A stretch of 14,947 nucleotides of DNA, from NCBI GenBank assembly GCA_903920925.1, contig CAIXOA010000117.1, positions 1 to 14,947 on the forward strand, in the 5' to 3' direction. A model generated the notes under the pieces. It was given only the letters and a program-made list of their open reading frames with translations, made no database searches and had not been told where the DNA came from. Numbering within the stretch: position 1 is the stretch's first letter; the number at the start of each line of letters is the position of its first letter. The translations under genes were made by a program, and so were the position numbers. Source of the DNA: an uncultured Microcaldota archaeon (GTDB lineage: Archaea; Micrarchaeota; Micrarchaeia; Anstonellales; Bilamarchaeaceae). Positions 5,409-11,225 of this stretch are shown piece by piece.

Positions 5409-5735
5409 ATGGAAAAATCATTGTTTGTGAATTTCCTTGGGGACACGCCGCTTGTAAGGGTGATGGACTTCCTCATAGGGAACAGCATATTCGACTACAC
5501 GAAAACGGACATTGCGGAGAACTCGGGCGTGTCCAGGGCTTCCCTGTATGTGGTATGGCCGCAGCTCGAGCAATATGAAATAGTGAAGGCGAGCAGGAAG
5601 ATAGGGAACACAACGCTTTACCGGCTGAATAAGGAGAACCCGGTGGTGCAAAAGCTTATCGAGCTGGACCTGAAGCTCAGCAGGGAATATGCAGATATGG
5701 AAGGGAAGGCGGTGGCGAGAGTGGCGGCGCACTGA
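5409..5735 (+). CDS. Winged-helix DNA-binding protein
   Basis: This 108-residue protein has an archaeal-type winged helix. LGDTPLVRVMDFLIGN forms the first helix, YTKTDIAENSGVSRASLYVVWPQLEQYEIV gives the helix-turn-helix, and RKIGNTTLYRLNKENPVVQKL gives the wing and last helix. It is likely a transcription regulator, and no ligand domain is seen. A TATA-like box at 5380-5387 suggests a leaderless transcript. It sits just upstream of the DGR target protein gene, but its stop is 49 bp before that gene's start and a separate TATA-like box intervenes, so a functional link is not established. It is divergent from the rtcA operon, which it could regulate. Confidence 0.8.
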   Translation: MEKSLFVNFLGDTPLVRVMDFLIGNSIFDYTKTDIAENSGVSRASLYVVWPQLEQYEIVKASRKIGNTTLYRLNKENPVVQKLIELDLKLSREYADMEGKAVARVAAH

Positions 5736-5762: not shown

Positions 5763-5784
5763 GATTTCCATGCACTATATTATC

Positions 5785-6705
5785 ATGAACTCCAAAACTG
5801 ATGTTGCAAAAAGGGAATTTATTCGTGGCCCAGCCCTTGAAGTGCTCGTGCCGAGAAGCAAGGGCAAGCCTTTTGACGAAGGAATTCTGATTGCAGAGCA
5901 AGGCAGGCGGGTTATCGCCTCATGCCTCAGGATGGACAGGGCGCTTGTCGGAAGCGAAGAATGGAGGAGCATCTCCGAAGTTTTTGCCTGCTGGACCGGC
6001 ACCATGACGGCTTATGTAGAACCAAATACGCGTTTCAGGGACAGCAAAAACGTGCAGAGGGTTGCCTCTCTGGACAACGGGCATTACCAGATTTACACCG
6101 ACCCGGATACAGGAATTCGTTACTTGTTCCCTATTTATGAAGAGCATCTGGATGCAAGCAACAGGCTTCTGCTCTCGGAACACCCTAACTACAGTTTGGT
6201 GCATGATGGAAACGACAGGATAGTGAAGCCGGTGGCTGATAACCTTGTTGATAAAGTGGATAAGTTCCCTGCGCGCGGCGATGCATGGTACGTAACAGAA
6301 CCGGTGCACGGCATTCCGCAGGGAGAGCAGACTAATGGCAGCACAAGCGATCAGAGCGTGCTCTGGAGAATAGATTCCAGAGTGGGCCCTGTCGGGCGCG
6401 GCGACGACTACTACGGGTGGGACGGCGACGACGGGCGGTACGTCGTCCTGGACGACAGGCCGTCGGATGGTCTTGGGGTGGCAGTAGAAGCCCCCGAAGG
6501 GGGGCGCGCCGCGGAGGCGCCGCAAAGATTGCAGGTTGAAGCCGCACCCGAGAAGAAGGGCGTCGTGATTGCGGCAACCATTGAGCAGATGAAAGAGCTG
6601 GTTGGAAGGGCAGGGGCGGCTGTGCAGGAGCTTTCCGCAACAGTCCTTTCTGAGAAGCTTGAGCCAATCCGCAATCTGCTTGAAGCGCTGCAAATAAAAG
6701 AATAA
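5785..6705 (+). CDS. DGR variable (target) protein
   Basis: This 306-residue protein is the target of the DGR. Residues 1-200 form a conserved-looking region (IASCLRMDRALVGSEEW, CWTGTMTAYVEP, SEHPNYSLVHDGNDRIV, HGIPQG, LWRIDSRVGP). The variable region spans residues 200-230. Compared with the template translation, N becomes D at 207, 208 and 216, Y at 210 and 219, and V at 221; R becomes G at 204, 211 and 217; and D becomes G at 214. This fits the surface of a C-type-lectin-like DGR fold, an inference from family knowledge. Unusually, about 75 residues follow the VR: a linker rich in A, E, P and G, then a probable amphipathic helix (ATIEQMKELV to IRNLLEALQ). No signal peptide or membrane segment is visible, so the protein may be cytoplasmic. 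The start at 5785 is chosen from the TATA spacing. Confidence 0.85.
   Translation: MNSKTDVAKREFIRGPALEVLVPRSKGKPFDEGILIAEQGRRVIASCLRMDRALVGSEEWRSISEVFACWTGTMTAYVEPNTRFRDSKNVQRVASLDNGHYQIYTDPDTGIRYLFPIYEEHLDASNRLLLSEHPNYSLVHDGNDRIVKPVADNLVDKVDKFPARGDAWYVTEPVHGIPQGEQTNGSTSDQSVLWRIDSRVGPVGRGDDYYGWDGDDGRYVVLDDRPSDGLGVAVEAPEGGRAAEAPQRLQVEAAPEKKGVVIAATIEQMKELVGRAGAAVQELSATVLSEKLEPIRNLLEALQIKE
6384..6470 (+). repeat. DGR variable repeat (VR)
   Basis: This segment aligns without gaps to 6878-6964, and the identity continues through 6476/6970 (offset 494). Differences in the core fall at VR 6394, 6403, 6406, 6412, 6415, 6425, 6430, 6433, 6439, 6445 and 6446. Every one lies opposite an A in the template: eight A-to-G and three A-to-T. 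No C, G or T of the template is changed. The last 30 bp (6447-6476) are identical and would serve as the initiation-of-homology end. Three further A-site differences follow at 6477, 6478 and 6481, beyond which homology is lost. Confidence 0.95.
6490..6505 (+). promoter_or_regulatory. GC-rich hairpin just downstream of the VR
   Basis: GCCCCC (6490-6495) and GGGGGC (6500-6504 plus C6505) pair in a perfect six-base-pair stem around the tetraloop GAAG. It begins about 14 bases after the VR end and has no counterpart after the template repeat. Known DGRs carry a short hairpin or cruciform with a four-base loop just after the VR that promotes retrohoming, and this matches in place and form. A second possible stem, GGCGC/GCGCC, spans 6503-6521. 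Here the hairpin lies inside the protein-coding frame (EAPEGG). Confidence 0.6.
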
Positions 6706-6707
6706 CC

Positions 6708-6720
6708 TTTTCTTTATTTT
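6708..6720 (+). terminator. T-rich terminator after the target gene
   Basis: TTTTCTTTATTTT directly follows the stop at 6703-6705. Archaeal termination commonly occurs at T-runs. If it works, the template RNA beyond it would need read-through or its own promoter. Confidence 0.35.
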
Positions 6721-7017
6721 CACCCGGGTGCAAGCCCGGGGCCACACACCCGTTTGCAGTGCCTGCTTTGGGCAGGACATGAAATTCAGCGGCGACAGTG
6801 AGTAGGCCATACCGGCTGAAATCCTGAAGCCGCGGTGTGGGCGCGAAAGCGCCATTTGAGCAAATGGGTTACCTCTGGGGCCCTGTCAGGCGCGGCAACA
6901 ACTACAACAGGTGGGACGACGACAACAGGCGGAACGTCAACCTGGACGACAGGCCGTCGGATGGTCTTGGAATGACTCTGGGCTTGCATTCTGGGGATTT
7001 TGTGACCCGTGGGATGC
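6721..7017 (+). ncRNA. DGR template RNA region (boundaries uncertain)
   Basis: This stretch of about 300 bases between the target gene and the reverse transcriptase has no convincing gene and holds the template repeat. Upstream of the TR are several potential stems. CCCGGG occurs at 6723-6728 and 6735-6740. CCTGC/GCAGG flank a short loop near 6761-6777. TTCAGC (6784-6789) can pair with GCTGAA near 6814-6819. A perfect GGCGC-GAAA-GCGCC hairpin with a GNRA tetraloop spans 6840-6853, 24 bases before the TR. By DGR precedent, the transcript is the template for mutagenic cDNA synthesis. The RNA ends are not visible in the sequence. Confidence 0.55.
6878..6970 (+). repeat. DGR template repeat (TR)
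   Basis: This 93-bp template copy matches the VR at every C, G and T. It reads G-P-V-R-R-G-N-N-Y-N-R-W-D-D-D-N in the frame of the target protein. Six AAC codons stand at the diversified sites (6897, 6900, 6906, 6924, 6933, 6939). AAC can be changed at both As to many residues without creating a stop codon, which is typical of DGR templates. Eleven of its 23 adenines differ in the VR. The next bases (to 6976) add three more A-site differences. The TR ends 47 bases before the reverse transcriptase ATG. Confidence 0.95.
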
Positions 7018-7518
7018 ATGAAACGATACGGAAACTTCTATCCGCGCATCTGCTCTTACGAAAACCTTGAGCTTGCCTTCAGGAGGGCGAGGCGGGGGAA
7101 AACAAAGAAGGAGTATGTGGTTGAGTTTGAGGCGAACCTTGGGGAAAATCTGGGCAGATTAAAGGAAGAACTGGAAAACTTCGCTTACTCTCCTGCGCCG
7201 ATGGAAACGTTTGTCGTGTGCGACCCGAAAACGAGGGTGATAAGCGCCTCTCATTTCCGCGACCGCGTTGTCCATCACGCGCTCATTAACGTGATTGGGC
7301 CGATTTTTGAGAAGAGCTTCATTTACGATTCATTTGCGAACCAGAAGGGAAAGGGGACTCATTCGGCGATACTGCGGTTTGAGAAATTTATGATAAAAGT
7401 TAGCGGGAAAAGAAAGCTAAGAACTGGAAACCGGGAACCGGAAACTGGAATCCTCTGCCCCCCCCCAGCATATCAGCGCCGGCTACGCGCTGAAGGCGGA
7501 CATAAGGCATTATTTTGA
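7018..7518 (+). CDS. DGR reverse transcriptase, N-terminal fragment (frameshifted)
   Basis: This is the first part of the DGR reverse transcriptase, starting MKRYGNFYPRICSYENL at the ATG 7018. The N-terminus and fingers region are recognisable (AFRRARRGKTKKEYVVEFE, FVVCDPKTRVISASHFRDRVVHHAL, FIYDSFANQKGKGTHSAI). RxSxxxFRDRVVHHAL resembles motif 1 of retron, group II and DGR enzymes. After about residue 147 the frame is wrong. The true continuation (GYALKADIRHYFETVDH) lies one frame away, and the tail after the nine-C run (7458-7466) is an artefact. Removing one base in that run rejoins both parts into one protein of 365 residues, the usual DGR reverse transcriptase length. A 10-base segment before the run has a repeated CTGGAAA-like composition. 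Confidence 0.85.
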   Translation: MKRYGNFYPRICSYENLELAFRRARRGKTKKEYVVEFEANLGENLGRLKEELENFAYSPAPMETFVVCDPKTRVISASHFRDRVVHHALINVIGPIFEKSFIYDSFANQKGKGTHSAILRFEKFMIKVSGKRKLRTGNREPETGILCPPPAYQRRLRAEGGHKALF

Positions 7519-7522
7519 GACG

Positions 7523-8116
7523 GTGGACCATGGGGTTCTGCTGAGGATTGTCGGGCGGAAGATAAAGGACGGGCACGTCTTATGGCTCATACGAAGAATA
7601 CTGGAAAACCACCGGGGTGCGGTTGCAGGAACTGGAATGGCGTTGGGAAACCTTACATCCCAATTCTTCGCAAATGTCTACCTGAATGAATTGGATTACT
7701 TCGTGAAGCACGAACTGAAGGCGAAACGATATATCCGCTATGTGGATGACTTTGTGATTCTGCACAGGGATAGGAAAACTCTTGTGAAGTGGCACAAGGA
7801 GATTGATGCATTCCTGCGCGGGAAATTGAAGATTGAACTGCACCCGGAGAAGACAACCATCATTCCGCTGGGAAATGGGATAACCCTGCTGGGGTTCAGG
7901 GTTTTCCGGCATTACAGATTGTTGAAGAAAAGCAATGCGCGGAGGATTTGGGGGCGGCTGGAGAGATTTAAGGAGAAATGCCATGCTGGGGAGATGCGCC
8001 GGGAGGATGTTGTGCGGAGCCTAGAGGGGTGGCTCGCATATGCGGAGTTTGCTAACTCGTATAAACTGAGGAAGAAAGTCACTGCTAGGTTCAATATGCT
8101 GTTTGGGACAATATGA
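7523..8116 (+). CDS. DGR reverse transcriptase, catalytic C-terminal fragment (frameshifted)
   Basis: This part holds the palm and thumb of the reverse transcriptase. The frame is open from 7421, and recognisable protein starts near 7478 (AGYALKADIRHYFETVDH, with the first catalytic Asp). The GTG at 7523 is only the first possible start. GMALGNLTSQFFANVYLNEL carries the SQ-type motif 4 (LGNLTSQ, 7643-7663) that is characteristic of DGR enzymes, where group II introns usually have other residues. RYVDDFVIL holds the catalytic YVDD (7739-7750), followed by KLKIELHPEKT and LLGFRVF. No maturase or endonuclease domain follows, so this is not a group II intron. The enzyme would copy the template RNA into A-mutagenised cDNA. 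Whether it is made depends on the nine-C run upstream. Confidence 0.9.
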   Translation: MDHGVLLRIVGRKIKDGHVLWLIRRILENHRGAVAGTGMALGNLTSQFFANVYLNELDYFVKHELKAKRYIRYVDDFVILHRDRKTLVKWHKEIDAFLRGKLKIELHPEKTTIIPLGNGITLLGFRVFRHYRLLKKSNARRIWGRLERFKEKCHAGEMRREDVVRSLEGWLAYAEFANSYKLRKKVTARFNMLFGTI

Positions 8117-8585: not shown

Positions 8586-9800
8586 ATGGATTACGATTAT
8601 GATATCATAATAATAGGCGGAGGGCCCGCGGGGGCGTCCATGGCCCGGATTGCCGCCCAGAACGGAATGAGCGTAATGATTTATGACAAAAGGAAGGAGC
8701 TGGGCGAGCCGGTGAGGTGCGGGGAGGGGCTCGGGCAGAGGGAGGTGCTCGCGCAGGGTGTAGACCTGCCGAGATGGTGCTTCTCAACGGAAATCCTGGG
8801 GGCGAAGGTGATTGCCCCCAACGGAAAGAGCATAACCTGGAAGAGCAAGGATACGAAGGGCTGGGTGCTCGAGCGGAAAATGTTTGACAAGTGGCTGGTG
8901 GAGCTGGCTGTGGAGAAGGGCGCGAAGGTGAGGACCTATTCCCGGGTTACGGATTTGGTGAAGAAGGACGGGAAAATAGACGGGGTAATGGTGTCCCAGT
9001 GGGGCAAGGAGCCGTTCGAGGTGCGGGCGCCGCTGGTGGTGTCGGCAGAAGGAATGGAGGCCATAGTCGCCCGGAAGGCGGGGCTGAAGGCCATGTCCAC
9101 GCTCTATGATGTGGACACCTGCTACCAGTATGAGATGAAGCCGTATAATCACGAGAACCTGATAGAACTCTATTTTGGGAACAGGATTGCGCCGAGGGGG
9201 TACGTATGGATATTCCCGAAGGACGCGAAGAAGGCGAATGTGGGGATAGGGATAGGCGCGCACCTTACTAATGGAAAGAAGGGCGGGAATGTGGACGGGG
9301 CGGAGCCGAAGAGACTGCTGGACGAGTTCATTGCGGGGAATAAGGAGTTGAGGGATGCGAGCGTATTGCAGGACTTTGGGGGCGTAATTTCGGTCGGGGC
9401 GCCGATAGATTCATTTGTGAAGGACGGATTCATGTGCATAGGGACCGCTGCTCGGCAGGTGGACCCAATCCACGGGGGCGGGATTGCGCTTGCAATGGAG
9501 ACGGGGATAATGGCCGCGGGGGTTGCGGCGAAGGCCCACTCTAGGAAGGATTACTCGGAAAGGATGCTGAAGGAGTATGAGAATGCCTGGAGAAGCGGGC
9601 CGGGAAAGAAGATGGGGAAGAGATTGTTGCTGAGAAAAGTGATGGAGGAGGTGAACGATGACGACCTCAACCACATCTTCAACACGATTAAGGACGCGGA
9701 CCTCCAGAAGGTGATGGAAGGGAACTTCGCGGGACCGGTGGCGAAAGTTGTCGCAGGAAGGCCGCAATTACTGCGTATTCTGAAAGCGCTGATTAGCTAG
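8586..9800 (+). CDS. Geranylgeranyl reductase family flavoprotein
   Basis: This FAD-dependent enzyme of 404 residues reduces double bonds of the isoprenoid chains of archaeal lipids. YDYDIIIIGGGPAGASMA (residues 3-20) is the FAD-binding Rossmann motif. ELGEPVRCGEGLG is the signature of the archaeal geranylgeranyl reductase group. GYVWIFPKDAKKANVGIGIG and GTAARQVDPIHGGGIALAMETG are the conserved substrate and second FAD motifs. The ATG at 8586 is preferred over the GTG at 8577 because the latter overlaps the ferredoxin stop. Its stop shares the CTAG palindrome with the stop of the convergent gene. Confidence 0.93.
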   Translation: MDYDYDIIIIGGGPAGASMARIAAQNGMSVMIYDKRKELGEPVRCGEGLGQREVLAQGVDLPRWCFSTEILGAKVIAPNGKSITWKSKDTKGWVLERKMFDKWLVELAVEKGAKVRTYSRVTDLVKKDGKIDGVMVSQWGKEPFEVRAPLVVSAEGMEAIVARKAGLKAMSTLYDVDTCYQYEMKPYNHENLIELYFGNRIAPRGYVWIFPKDAKKANVGIGIGAHLTNGKKGGNVDGAEPKRLLDEFIAGNKELRDASVLQDFGGVISVGAPIDSFVKDGFMCIGTAARQVDPIHGGGIALAMETGIMAAGVAAKAHSRKDYSERMLKEYENAWRSGPGKKMGKRLLLRKVMEEVNDDDLNHIFNTIKDADLQKVMEGNFAGPVAKVVAGRPQLLRILKALIS

Positions 9801-11140
9801 ATTATCGGCCGGAAGGAAAGCTCGCCGTTCTTCGCGTAGGGCATTGCTGCCCCGTCCCTTCCTGCAAGTTTTACGAAATACATCGCCATGTCTGCGAGGG
9901 TTATGAGGAGCTCGCCCCAGTTACTTGCGTACTCCAAAAGGGGGCCGTCTACCTTCTCCGGGAGCCTTCTCTGCCTGCGGATGCGCTTTAGGTCCGCGTC
10001 GCACTGTTCTCTGAGCTGCCTCATCCTTTCCATGCGCTCCGTCATGATTTTCATCATCTCTTCCTGGAAATCATGGGGGAATCGTTTCACCTCACGGAGC
10101 TCCTGCCATATGGATGAGCCCACGACGCCCACGCTGGCGCGAATTTCGACAGGCCCGGCTTCGGTGCTGCAGAGCATCGGGTTGAAGAGGCTGTGAAGGT
10201 AGGCGCCTTGCCGCTCTATGTCCGGAATGTTTGCGGCGCCAGGGCTCAGAAGCACGAATTCCTCGCCTCCATACCTGGAAGGGAAGCCACCCGCCTCGGA
10301 GCGGAGCCTGGAACCCATTATGCCCAGCACCTCGTCCGCGGTGCTGTGCCCGTAGGTGTCGTTGAACTTTTTGAAGTCGTCTATGTCAAGGAAGGCGACG
10401 CTGAAGCGCCTTTTCCGTATTATGCTTGCGATTGCCATCTTCAGCATAACCTCGTTGAGGAACCGCCTGTTCCAGAGGTTTGTGAGCGGGTCGATGTTCT
10501 TGATTTCCTCGTCGCGCTGGGTGTAAAGCTCCTGCCAGATGAGGCGGGCCATCCCCACGAGATAGTCCAGCTGCTCGTTGTCCCTGCTTCCGGAGGGGTT
10601 CACGAAACCTTCCACCGCGAGCATGTGGGTGACGTCCATGTTGCCCCTGGACATGTTTCCAAGGGGTATCCAGCACCCGCAGTTGCCGAAGGCGGTGGCG
10701 ACCCTCTCGCTCTGGGTGCTGAAATCGTCAGGGTCGGAAGTGAAGAGGTGCATATTCTCTCCGTTGAAAACGACCATGTTCCCCGCGAGTATCTTGCCTA
10801 TGCGGGCATCCATGCGCATCATGAATTCCCTCTGCTCGCTTCCCAGCGGAGCCCCCCCTTCCCGCGCCATTAGGCGGAAGCCTTCCTCCCCCTTTGCCTC
10901 CCAAAGCTCTACCTTGGAAAGGTTTGGGTCGGTGGCGAGAATCTCTTTCATTATGAATTTACGCCTGTTGTGCCTGTGCTCGACCATGTGGAGCCTGCGC
11001 ACTACGGAGCTCTGAGAACGGAAATAAGCGGTCTGGGGGTCCTTCAGGCCGAATTCCCTGGGTGCTGGCGGAAGCTGGGGTGCACCCGTCTCGTGGAAAC
11101 CCGGGGTGGGTGCGGCTGGAGGTCTGGATTTATCATTCAT
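9797..11140 (-). CDS. GAF-GGDEF protein (putative diguanylate cyclase)
   Basis: A diguanylate cyclase makes cyclic di-GMP from two GTP. This 447-residue protein has an N-terminal Pro-rich stretch (1-30) and a GAF-like sensory region (about 60-205). The GGDEF domain starts at DPLTNLWNRRFL (217-228), with FLDIDDFKKFNDTYGH (250-265), SRYGGEEF (288-295, active site intact) and LADMAMYFVKLAGRDG (415-430). The position of the inhibitory RxxD site reads EAGG, so it is lost. About 70 residues (341-412), including a Lys/Arg- and Glu-rich helix, are inserted before the last part of the domain. The ATG at 11140 is chosen because the TATA-like AATTATTAG lies 29 bp upstream. GGDEF proteins are rare in archaea. 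Confidence 0.88.
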   Translation of the reverse strand: MNDKSRPPAAPTPGFHETGAPQLPPAPREFGLKDPQTAYFRSQSSVVRRLHMVEHRHNRRKFIMKEILATDPNLSKVELWEAKGEEGFRLMAREGGAPLGSEQREFMMRMDARIGKILAGNMVVFNGENMHLFTSDPDDFSTQSERVATAFGNCGCWIPLGNMSRGNMDVTHMLAVEGFVNPSGSRDNEQLDYLVGMARLIWQELYTQRDEEIKNIDPLTNLWNRRFLNEVMLKMAIASIIRKRRFSVAFLDIDDFKKFNDTYGHSTADEVLGIMGSRLRSEAGGFPSRYGGEEFVLLSPGAANIPDIERQGAYLHSLFNPMLCSTEAGPVEIRASVGVVGSSIWQELREVKRFPHDFQEEMMKIMTERMERMRQLREQCDADLKRIRRQRRLPEKVDGPLLEYASNWGELLITLADMAMYFVKLAGRDGAAMPYAKNGELSFRPII

Positions 11141-11225
11141 ACTATTCAACCAATTATAACTACTAATAATTGCACCACATCTGTTTTTATTTGTTTCCCT
11201 ACTTCCATAGGGGCAGGTGGAACAA

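Follow-up and report, generated by a model that had tools for sequence, protein, structure and literature searches.

A proposed contingency locus in a reverse transcriptase gene: a candidate phase-variable diversity-generating retroelement in a Micrarchaeota-like archaeon

The window (the whole stretch of 14,947 nt that we analysed) holds a diversity-generating retroelement (DGR) whose reverse transcriptase (RT) gene is split over two reading frames at a run of nine cytosines (C9). Our main reading, to which we give a probability of about 0.7, is that this is a chromosomal, phase-variable DGR of a Micrarchaeota-like archaeon and that its RT gene is a contingency locus. We favour it because a slippage-prone repeat stands at a fixed spot, both frames are open across it, in-frame and out-of-frame states are mixed, the tract differs in length between close kin, and the halves of the broken genes are constrained. 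Almost as probable, in our judgement, is the wider proposal that simple-repeat switches were built repeatedly and independently, at four sites, into the DGR RTs of DPANN archaea, and that here the hypermutation engine is itself phase-variable, alternating between 'diversify' and 'keep what works'.

In the mechanism that we propose, the DGR would diversify a C-type-lectin-like protein, and the C9 run of the RT would sit in a flexible linker that joins the fingers to the catalytic palm. Replication slippage (slipped-strand mispairing) on the run would change the length of the tract. The right length class would join the two frames and the RT would be made (ON), other lengths would lead to truncation before both catalytic motifs (OFF), and mutagenic retrohoming would then come in heritable, reversible bursts. 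We infer that slipped-strand mispairing is the cause, that switching is reversible within a single population, and that the ON and OFF states affect retrohoming. If a DGR were active all the time, it would overwrite good variants; a stochastic, heritable switch would solve this problem.

The retroelement in the window

The features of the locus are as follows.

5409..5735, + strand: small helix-turn-helix-like protein upstream of the target gene, which may not belong to the system (weak HTH_7 match, below cut-off)
5770..6705, + strand: open reading frame of the target (variable) protein, 311 aa; the frame is open from 5689, and the likely start is at 5770
6384..6482, + strand: variable repeat (VR), core 6384-6476, with 14 differences to the template repeat, all at adenines of the latter
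6723..6877, + strand: RT-16 RNA (Rfam RF03019; 73.2 bits, gathering score 50), presumed 5' part of the template RNA
6878..6976, + strand: template repeat (TR), core 6878-6970; the assembly has one TR and one VR
7009..7518, + strand: RT first half (fingers region); past the C9 run its frame continues into an alien tail up to a stop
7421..8116, + strand: RT second half, in the other frame, with ADIRHYF, GNLTSQ and YVDD (Pfam RVT_1, 5.6e-9)
7458..7466, + strand: C9 homopolymer, the proposed contingency (phase-variation) tract, with both frames open across it

A preliminary description of the window, made from its letters, had recognised an archaeal DGR by two repeats that differ at adenines. This identification holds: besides the adenine-only differences between TR and VR, we find a DGR-type RT, a TR directly upstream of it and a target with a predicted C-type-lectin-like fold. 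At the offset of 494, VR 6384-6476 and TR 6878-6970 show the 11 differences that had been counted, all at TR adenines (8 A>G, 3 A>T), and the TR adenines at 6971, 6972 and 6975 differ from the VR as well, all by A>G. Over the full 99-nt pair, 14 of 14 differences (11 A>G, 3 A>T) fall on the TR's 26 adenines, with a positional chance of 2.5e-10; the three outermost ones may reflect the 3' border of the repeat rather than mutagenesis. With the TR as query, a search of the whole 900-kb assembly for further VR copies returned the TR itself and one VR only.

The bias towards A>G, which had been singled out, is present at the locus but is general in archaeal pairs and not peculiar to the window: the 28 TR/VR pairs of tract-bearing out-of-frame loci (see below) contain 301 A>G, 123 A>T and 14 A>C. 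As regards A-to-I-like editing as a source of A>G, we note that A>T is frequent too. A>C makes up 14 of 438 adenine changes in these archaeal pairs and is scarcer there than in the pairs that we saw in Chloroflexota and viral loci, namely L178, L188 and L191, with 4 of 21, 5 of 16 and 4 of 10, respectively. The archaeal RTs may have an error profile of their own.

The target protein had been thought possibly undescribed. It has indeed no Pfam or NCBIfam match, but 62 other homologues exist in the database (63 matches, itself included), and in the 47 that were aligned the scaffold is conserved and the VR contains hypervariable positions. Its structure model (pLDDT 85.8) gave no match at E 0.001 in a Foldseek search against the PDB. 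Among the 50 structural matches listed, the first 8 are C-type-lectin domains, including the nanoarchaeal DGR protein 5ioo, and the VR is predicted from the model to sit in a C-type-lectin-like variable protein.

In the 17 window ORFs scanned there was no match to a Pfam family of DGR accessory proteins (Avd or other). Sigma-70 and terminator scans, whose models are ill-suited to archaea, yielded little. At 9797-11149 (- strand) the window encodes a protein with a GGDEF (diguanylate cyclase) domain (Pfam, 1.2e-23); c-di-GMP enzymes are unusual in archaea.

The RT-16 match occupies the spacer between the target gene and the TR and ends right before the TR. We tabulated the distance for 19 of the 20 relatives that have a TR/VR pair, all but L099: the gap between the 3' end of RT-16 and the beginning of the TR is 0-2 nt in nine of the 19 and never exceeds 83 nt. 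RT-16 matches occur in 38 of the 301 genomes of the phylum, 35 of them above the gathering score, and 30 of the 41 genomes with an RT second half carry RT-16 as well. Since it adjoins the TR and co-occurs with the RT second half, these DGRs very probably have RT-16 as the 5' portion of their template RNA.

The preliminary description had noticed neither the RT-16 match nor the break in the RT gene behind the TR. This gene is split over two frames that overlap around the C9 run, and the label 'active-type' that had been given to the DGR can be kept in the sense of recent activity, but not for the RT reading frame, which is broken at this run in the assembly. The first half matches the first ~120 positions of RT models and is homologous to the N halves of relatives, and the catalytic motifs are kept despite the out-of-frame state in the assembly. 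In the window, the second frame contains no ATG, GTG or TTG start codon from where it opens as far as TVDHG, right behind motif A. The window's own 900-kb assembly has six G/C runs of at least 8, of which the C9 tract is the only one of at least 9.

For the RT of an in-frame relative, L115, the best PDB sequence match is 8ub7, 'Reverse transcriptase' (E 3e-45), which we take to be the BPP-1 DGR enzyme. GN[LMF]TSQ is found in 22 of 22 aligned RTs; the motif xGxxxSQ is a mark of DGR RTs. A group II intron RT was rejected (on TIGR04416, which has a cut-off of 300, the second half scores 79.5 bits and L115 161.3), and so was a Drt or retron identity, whose family models also score far below cut-off. 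In the model of the L115 RT (pLDDT 81.9), tract sites 1, 2 and 3 (see below) fall in loops between helices or strands, and the stretch 130-147 at site 1 has a pLDDT below 50. MutS_V was not found in the window's own assembly, which is 87% complete, so that its absence is not firm, and is present in 11 of 14 control genomes; missing mismatch repair would raise slippage.

Tracts in the phylum and in other groups

The survey of the phylum covers 47 RT second-half matches in 41 of the 301 genomes. Besides the window it includes 40 regions, of which 36 contain 37 of the 46 other matches and the remaining four just an N half or RT-16; a further nine second-half matches, weak or partial, were left out. 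Both RT halves lie on one stretch at 33 loci, the window included. The linker of 25 of these 33 contains a tract of G8-11, C8-9 or (AG)5-12, and 22 of the 25 tract-bearing RTs are broken, three (L078, L093 and L097) being in frame. None of the eight tract-less RTs is broken. If the decayed or interrupted L101, L102 and L103 are set aside, 19 of 22 tract-bearing RTs are broken. Sorted by offset, the broken genes comprise 11 at +1, 10 at +2, and L103, which is broken by a stop and an upstream break.

All 26 tracts (G/C runs of at least 8, AG/CT repeats of at least 5 units; L076 has two) lie within the 2,920 nt of linker, and none of the same G/C and AG/CT repeats occurs in the rest of the 252,639 nt of fetched phylum stretches. 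Runs of A or T of at least 9 are absent from these phylum loci. Both frames are open across the tract at 21 of 25 loci; L070 and L084 are not counted only because a stop codon shares the first letters of the tract, and L101 and L103, both decayed, truly lack two open frames. In 9 of the 17 genomes with an RT tract of at least 9, this tract is the only G/C run of that length. Genome-wide, 106 of 295 phylum genomes have at least one G/C run of at least 9, some elsewhere than in the RT. Several or long runs of this kind are found in G031, G032, G020, G004, G082 and G223, and are candidates for further contingency loci.

Read on the RT coding strand, the tracts are much more often G runs than C runs, a bias that slippage during replication would not by itself demand. 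The share out of frame (22 of 25) is larger than the two thirds expected of random tract lengths; such an excess of OFF states is expected of a costly, rarely needed activity, but also fits a productive frameshift or decay. At L102 (G037:C34:1-6000, 830-2283) the RT second half is split by ~1.4 kb, an inserted element or intron.

As in a contingency locus, the repeat at the RT lies in the coding sequence and sets the frame by its length, and this length differs between close relatives, namely between the decayed L101 and L103 and in pairs seen at the protein level. L101 (G161) and L103 (G157) are 98% identical over 745 nt, with identical flanks in the alignment, and have G10 and G8; this is the cleanest change of tract length, yet both copies are decayed. 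Genome G014 carries (AG)9 out of frame at L091 and (AG)10 in frame at L093. Furthermore, near-identical RT proteins exist in joined form and as second halves: P0185/P0059 (99.5% over 210), P0093/P0116 (99.5% over 190), P0211/P0065 (100% over 230), P0218/P0039 (93.7%) and P0184/P0040 (91.7%), all of them predicted proteins only, of which some could be explained by contig ends and one, P0093, is without the usual start.

Outside the window's phylum, tracts are less confined to the RT. The named scan kept 80 of 107 loci, pooled with four viral loci to 84. Counting all repeat types, these have 25 in 81.7 kb of RT versus 16 in the other 482 kb, and 23 of the 84 carry a G, C or AG tract inside the RT. 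The RT is present in 110 of the 371 genomes of G301's phylum (labelled Pacearchaeota). Our sample of 60 matches from this Nanoarchaeota-like phylum was picked by hand (32 short-frame, 28 long-frame), so that prevalence is biased; among its 58 loci with segments A, B and C, a tract is found at site 2 in 24 (22 of them out of frame), at site 3 in two, and not at all in 32. The set has 26 tracts in the RT and none outside. Site 2, between motif A/3 and GMPLGNLTSQ, is the main tract place in this set. The phylum of G302 (Aenigmatarchaeota) has 11 tracts in the RT versus 8 outside. Read by eye, the site 3 frames of L250, L283, L298 and L304 are in frame, that of L160 is out of frame and that of L302 has a stop. 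At site 0, an in-frame RT is uninformative about the state of the switch.

In summary, tract places recur in three DPANN groups at four points inside the RT gene or immediately ahead of it: at its 5' end, in the linker before motif A, in the loop before GNLTSQ and in the loop of the thumb. A tree of 155 RTs, built by a quick method with no bootstrap, contains at least 39 changes of tract state, each a gain or a loss (9 at site 1, 23 at site 2, 3 at site 0, 4 at site 3).

Genome G303 has three DGR RTs (L194, L243 and L247), with G8, G10 and G9 at site 2. In the Aenigmatarchaeota-like L287, L292, L293, L297, L301 and L309, a G9-G13 run lies outside the gene, 350-550 nt upstream of the RT, and at L128 the upstream G run comes after the stop of the presumed target gene. 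These runs are possibly a further switch on the template RNA or the target.

The control set has 36 loci, 32 from Chloroflexota (the phylum of G830 and the genome of L182) and four from G832. None of the 32 Chloroflexota RT loci contains a tract, and each has one frame. One of the four G832 loci (L317) carries C10. G832 ('bacterium isolate CSMAG_44', 1.0 Mb; L155, L317, L319, L321 and L322) is probably a mislabelled archaeon; its RT L155 groups with archaeal RTs. Four RT relatives on viral contigs (37-40% identical) are in frame and have no tract, and 113 phage records have a weak RT match.

Recent activity and rival explanations

Among tract-bearing loci, 28 of 51 that are out of frame and 8 of 15 that are in frame yielded a TR/VR pair with one or more differences; among tract-less loci, 46 of 87 in frame and 4 of 7 out of frame did so. 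In these classes the 'tract' of L136 and L265 is an A9 run only, site-0 tracts are counted as tract-less, and L160 and L302 as in frame. The 28 pairs of the first class have changes at 438 of 751 adenines and at 15 of 1,693 other sites, seven of these 15 in L173. Non-adenine differences number 5 of 413 in tract-bearing in-frame, 3 of 230 in tract-less out-of-frame and 44 of 2,743 in tract-less in-frame pairs, where 21 of the 44 come from the odd rows L161, L182 and L262, which we kept. Broken RTs are not accompanied by decayed templates, because non-adenine change is no higher in out-of-frame than in in-frame pairs.

Where synonymous change is short of saturation, the dN/dS of the out-of-frame pairs L070/L077, L072/L076 and L079/L085 is 0.04-0.08, rough values given a dS of 1.5-2.4. 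In-frame RT pairs have 0.09, and L194/L247 and L101/L103 higher values. Strong constraint on the out-of-frame RT halves is implied by these ratios, and recent activity by the TR/VR pairs.

Potentially, every out-of-frame gene could give some full-length RT by programmed frameshifting, through RNA polymerase slippage or a ribosomal shift, the tract then setting dosage rather than acting as a genetic switch. This would suit the observation that, in the phylum, 22 of 25 RTs with a tract are out of frame and yet TR/VR pairs look recently active, as well as the preference for purine tracts on the coding strand. On the other hand, the offsets are mixed, +1 (11) and +2 (10), unlike the single offset of a programmed ribosomal shift; tract-bearing copies in frame do exist; and the four tract sites are without A or T runs. 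A or T runs are the usual sites of transcriptional slippage, and ribosomes do not usually slip on (AG)n repeats. We consider frameshifting unlikely.

It is a good deal less probable that the RT gene was irreversibly inactivated by its frameshift, or that the frameshift arose from an assembly error in the homopolymer. Some loci do have this appearance: L101 and L103 are plainly decayed, with truncated second halves, L173 has seven non-adenine TR/VR differences, and the consensus of a MAG can err at G10-11. Against this reading stand a tract that recurs at one position phylum-wide and nowhere else in 250 kb, the strong constraint on out-of-frame halves, the absence of an excess of non-adenine TR/VR change (15 of 1,693 out of frame versus 44 of 2,743 in frame), and the k141 names of several named contigs, which presumably denote short-read MEGAHIT assemblies. 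As the sole explanation, a pseudogene was rejected for the family and kept as a rival for L101, L103, L102 and L173. A true split RT, made of two separately translated subunits that assemble, seems to us very improbable. Second-half predicted proteins are common in databases, in a set whose length limit omits most full-length RTs, but the window, L070 and L084 have no ATG, GTG or TTG from the opening of the second frame to TVDH, and close relatives hold joined copies.

Relation to known systems

DGRs and simple-repeat phase variation are each known; as far as our searches show, their union is not. Frameshift, homopolymer and phase variation are absent from the main texts of Roux 2021 (PMC8144416), Paul 2015 (PMC4372165) and Yan 2019 (PMC6642488), and term searches of the DGR papers PMC8867640, PMC10053308, PMC12875486 and PMC11792537 likewise did not find the union. 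The titles and abstract openings returned by our literature searches include no report of a phase-variable DGR. By a term search, a 2025 review (PMC11868660) mentions archaea once, as a group for extending surveys, and neither 'reverse transcriptase' nor 'retroelement' appears in a survey from 2010 (PMC2831843) of the homopolymer tracts of 99 genomes, 18 of them archaeal. The control of DGR activity in nature is called 'an exciting frontier' in a passage of a 2026 study of a reconstituted DGR (PMC12875486). If our reading is true, simple-repeat phase variation would, within the scope of these searches, be linked here for the first time to a hypermutation enzyme, and to archaea. Surveys of archaeal DGRs may drop such RT genes as pseudogenes or short fragments.

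With known DGRs (the BPP-1 type and the archaeal DGRs of DPANN and ANMV-1) the system shares the adenine-only TR/VR differences, the RT downstream of the TR and the C-type-lectin-like target, but the window's RT gene is interrupted by a slippage-prone simple repeat. Compared with AvpA, the nanoarchaeal DGR variable protein (PDB 5ioo, as described in part of PMC5006420), the target has 8% identity over the structural match and, in the model, extends ~70 residues, partly helical, beyond the domain. RT-16 (RF03019) has its covariance match in the window and the phylum, and what differs is that it is tied to DGRs here. With the contingency loci of Neisseria, Campylobacter and Helicobacter the RT gene has in common G/C homopolymers and dinucleotide repeats in the coding sequence, two open frames and length differences between kin, whereas the gene that would be switched is an enzyme of targeted mutation instead of a surface or restriction gene, and the hosts are DPANN archaea.
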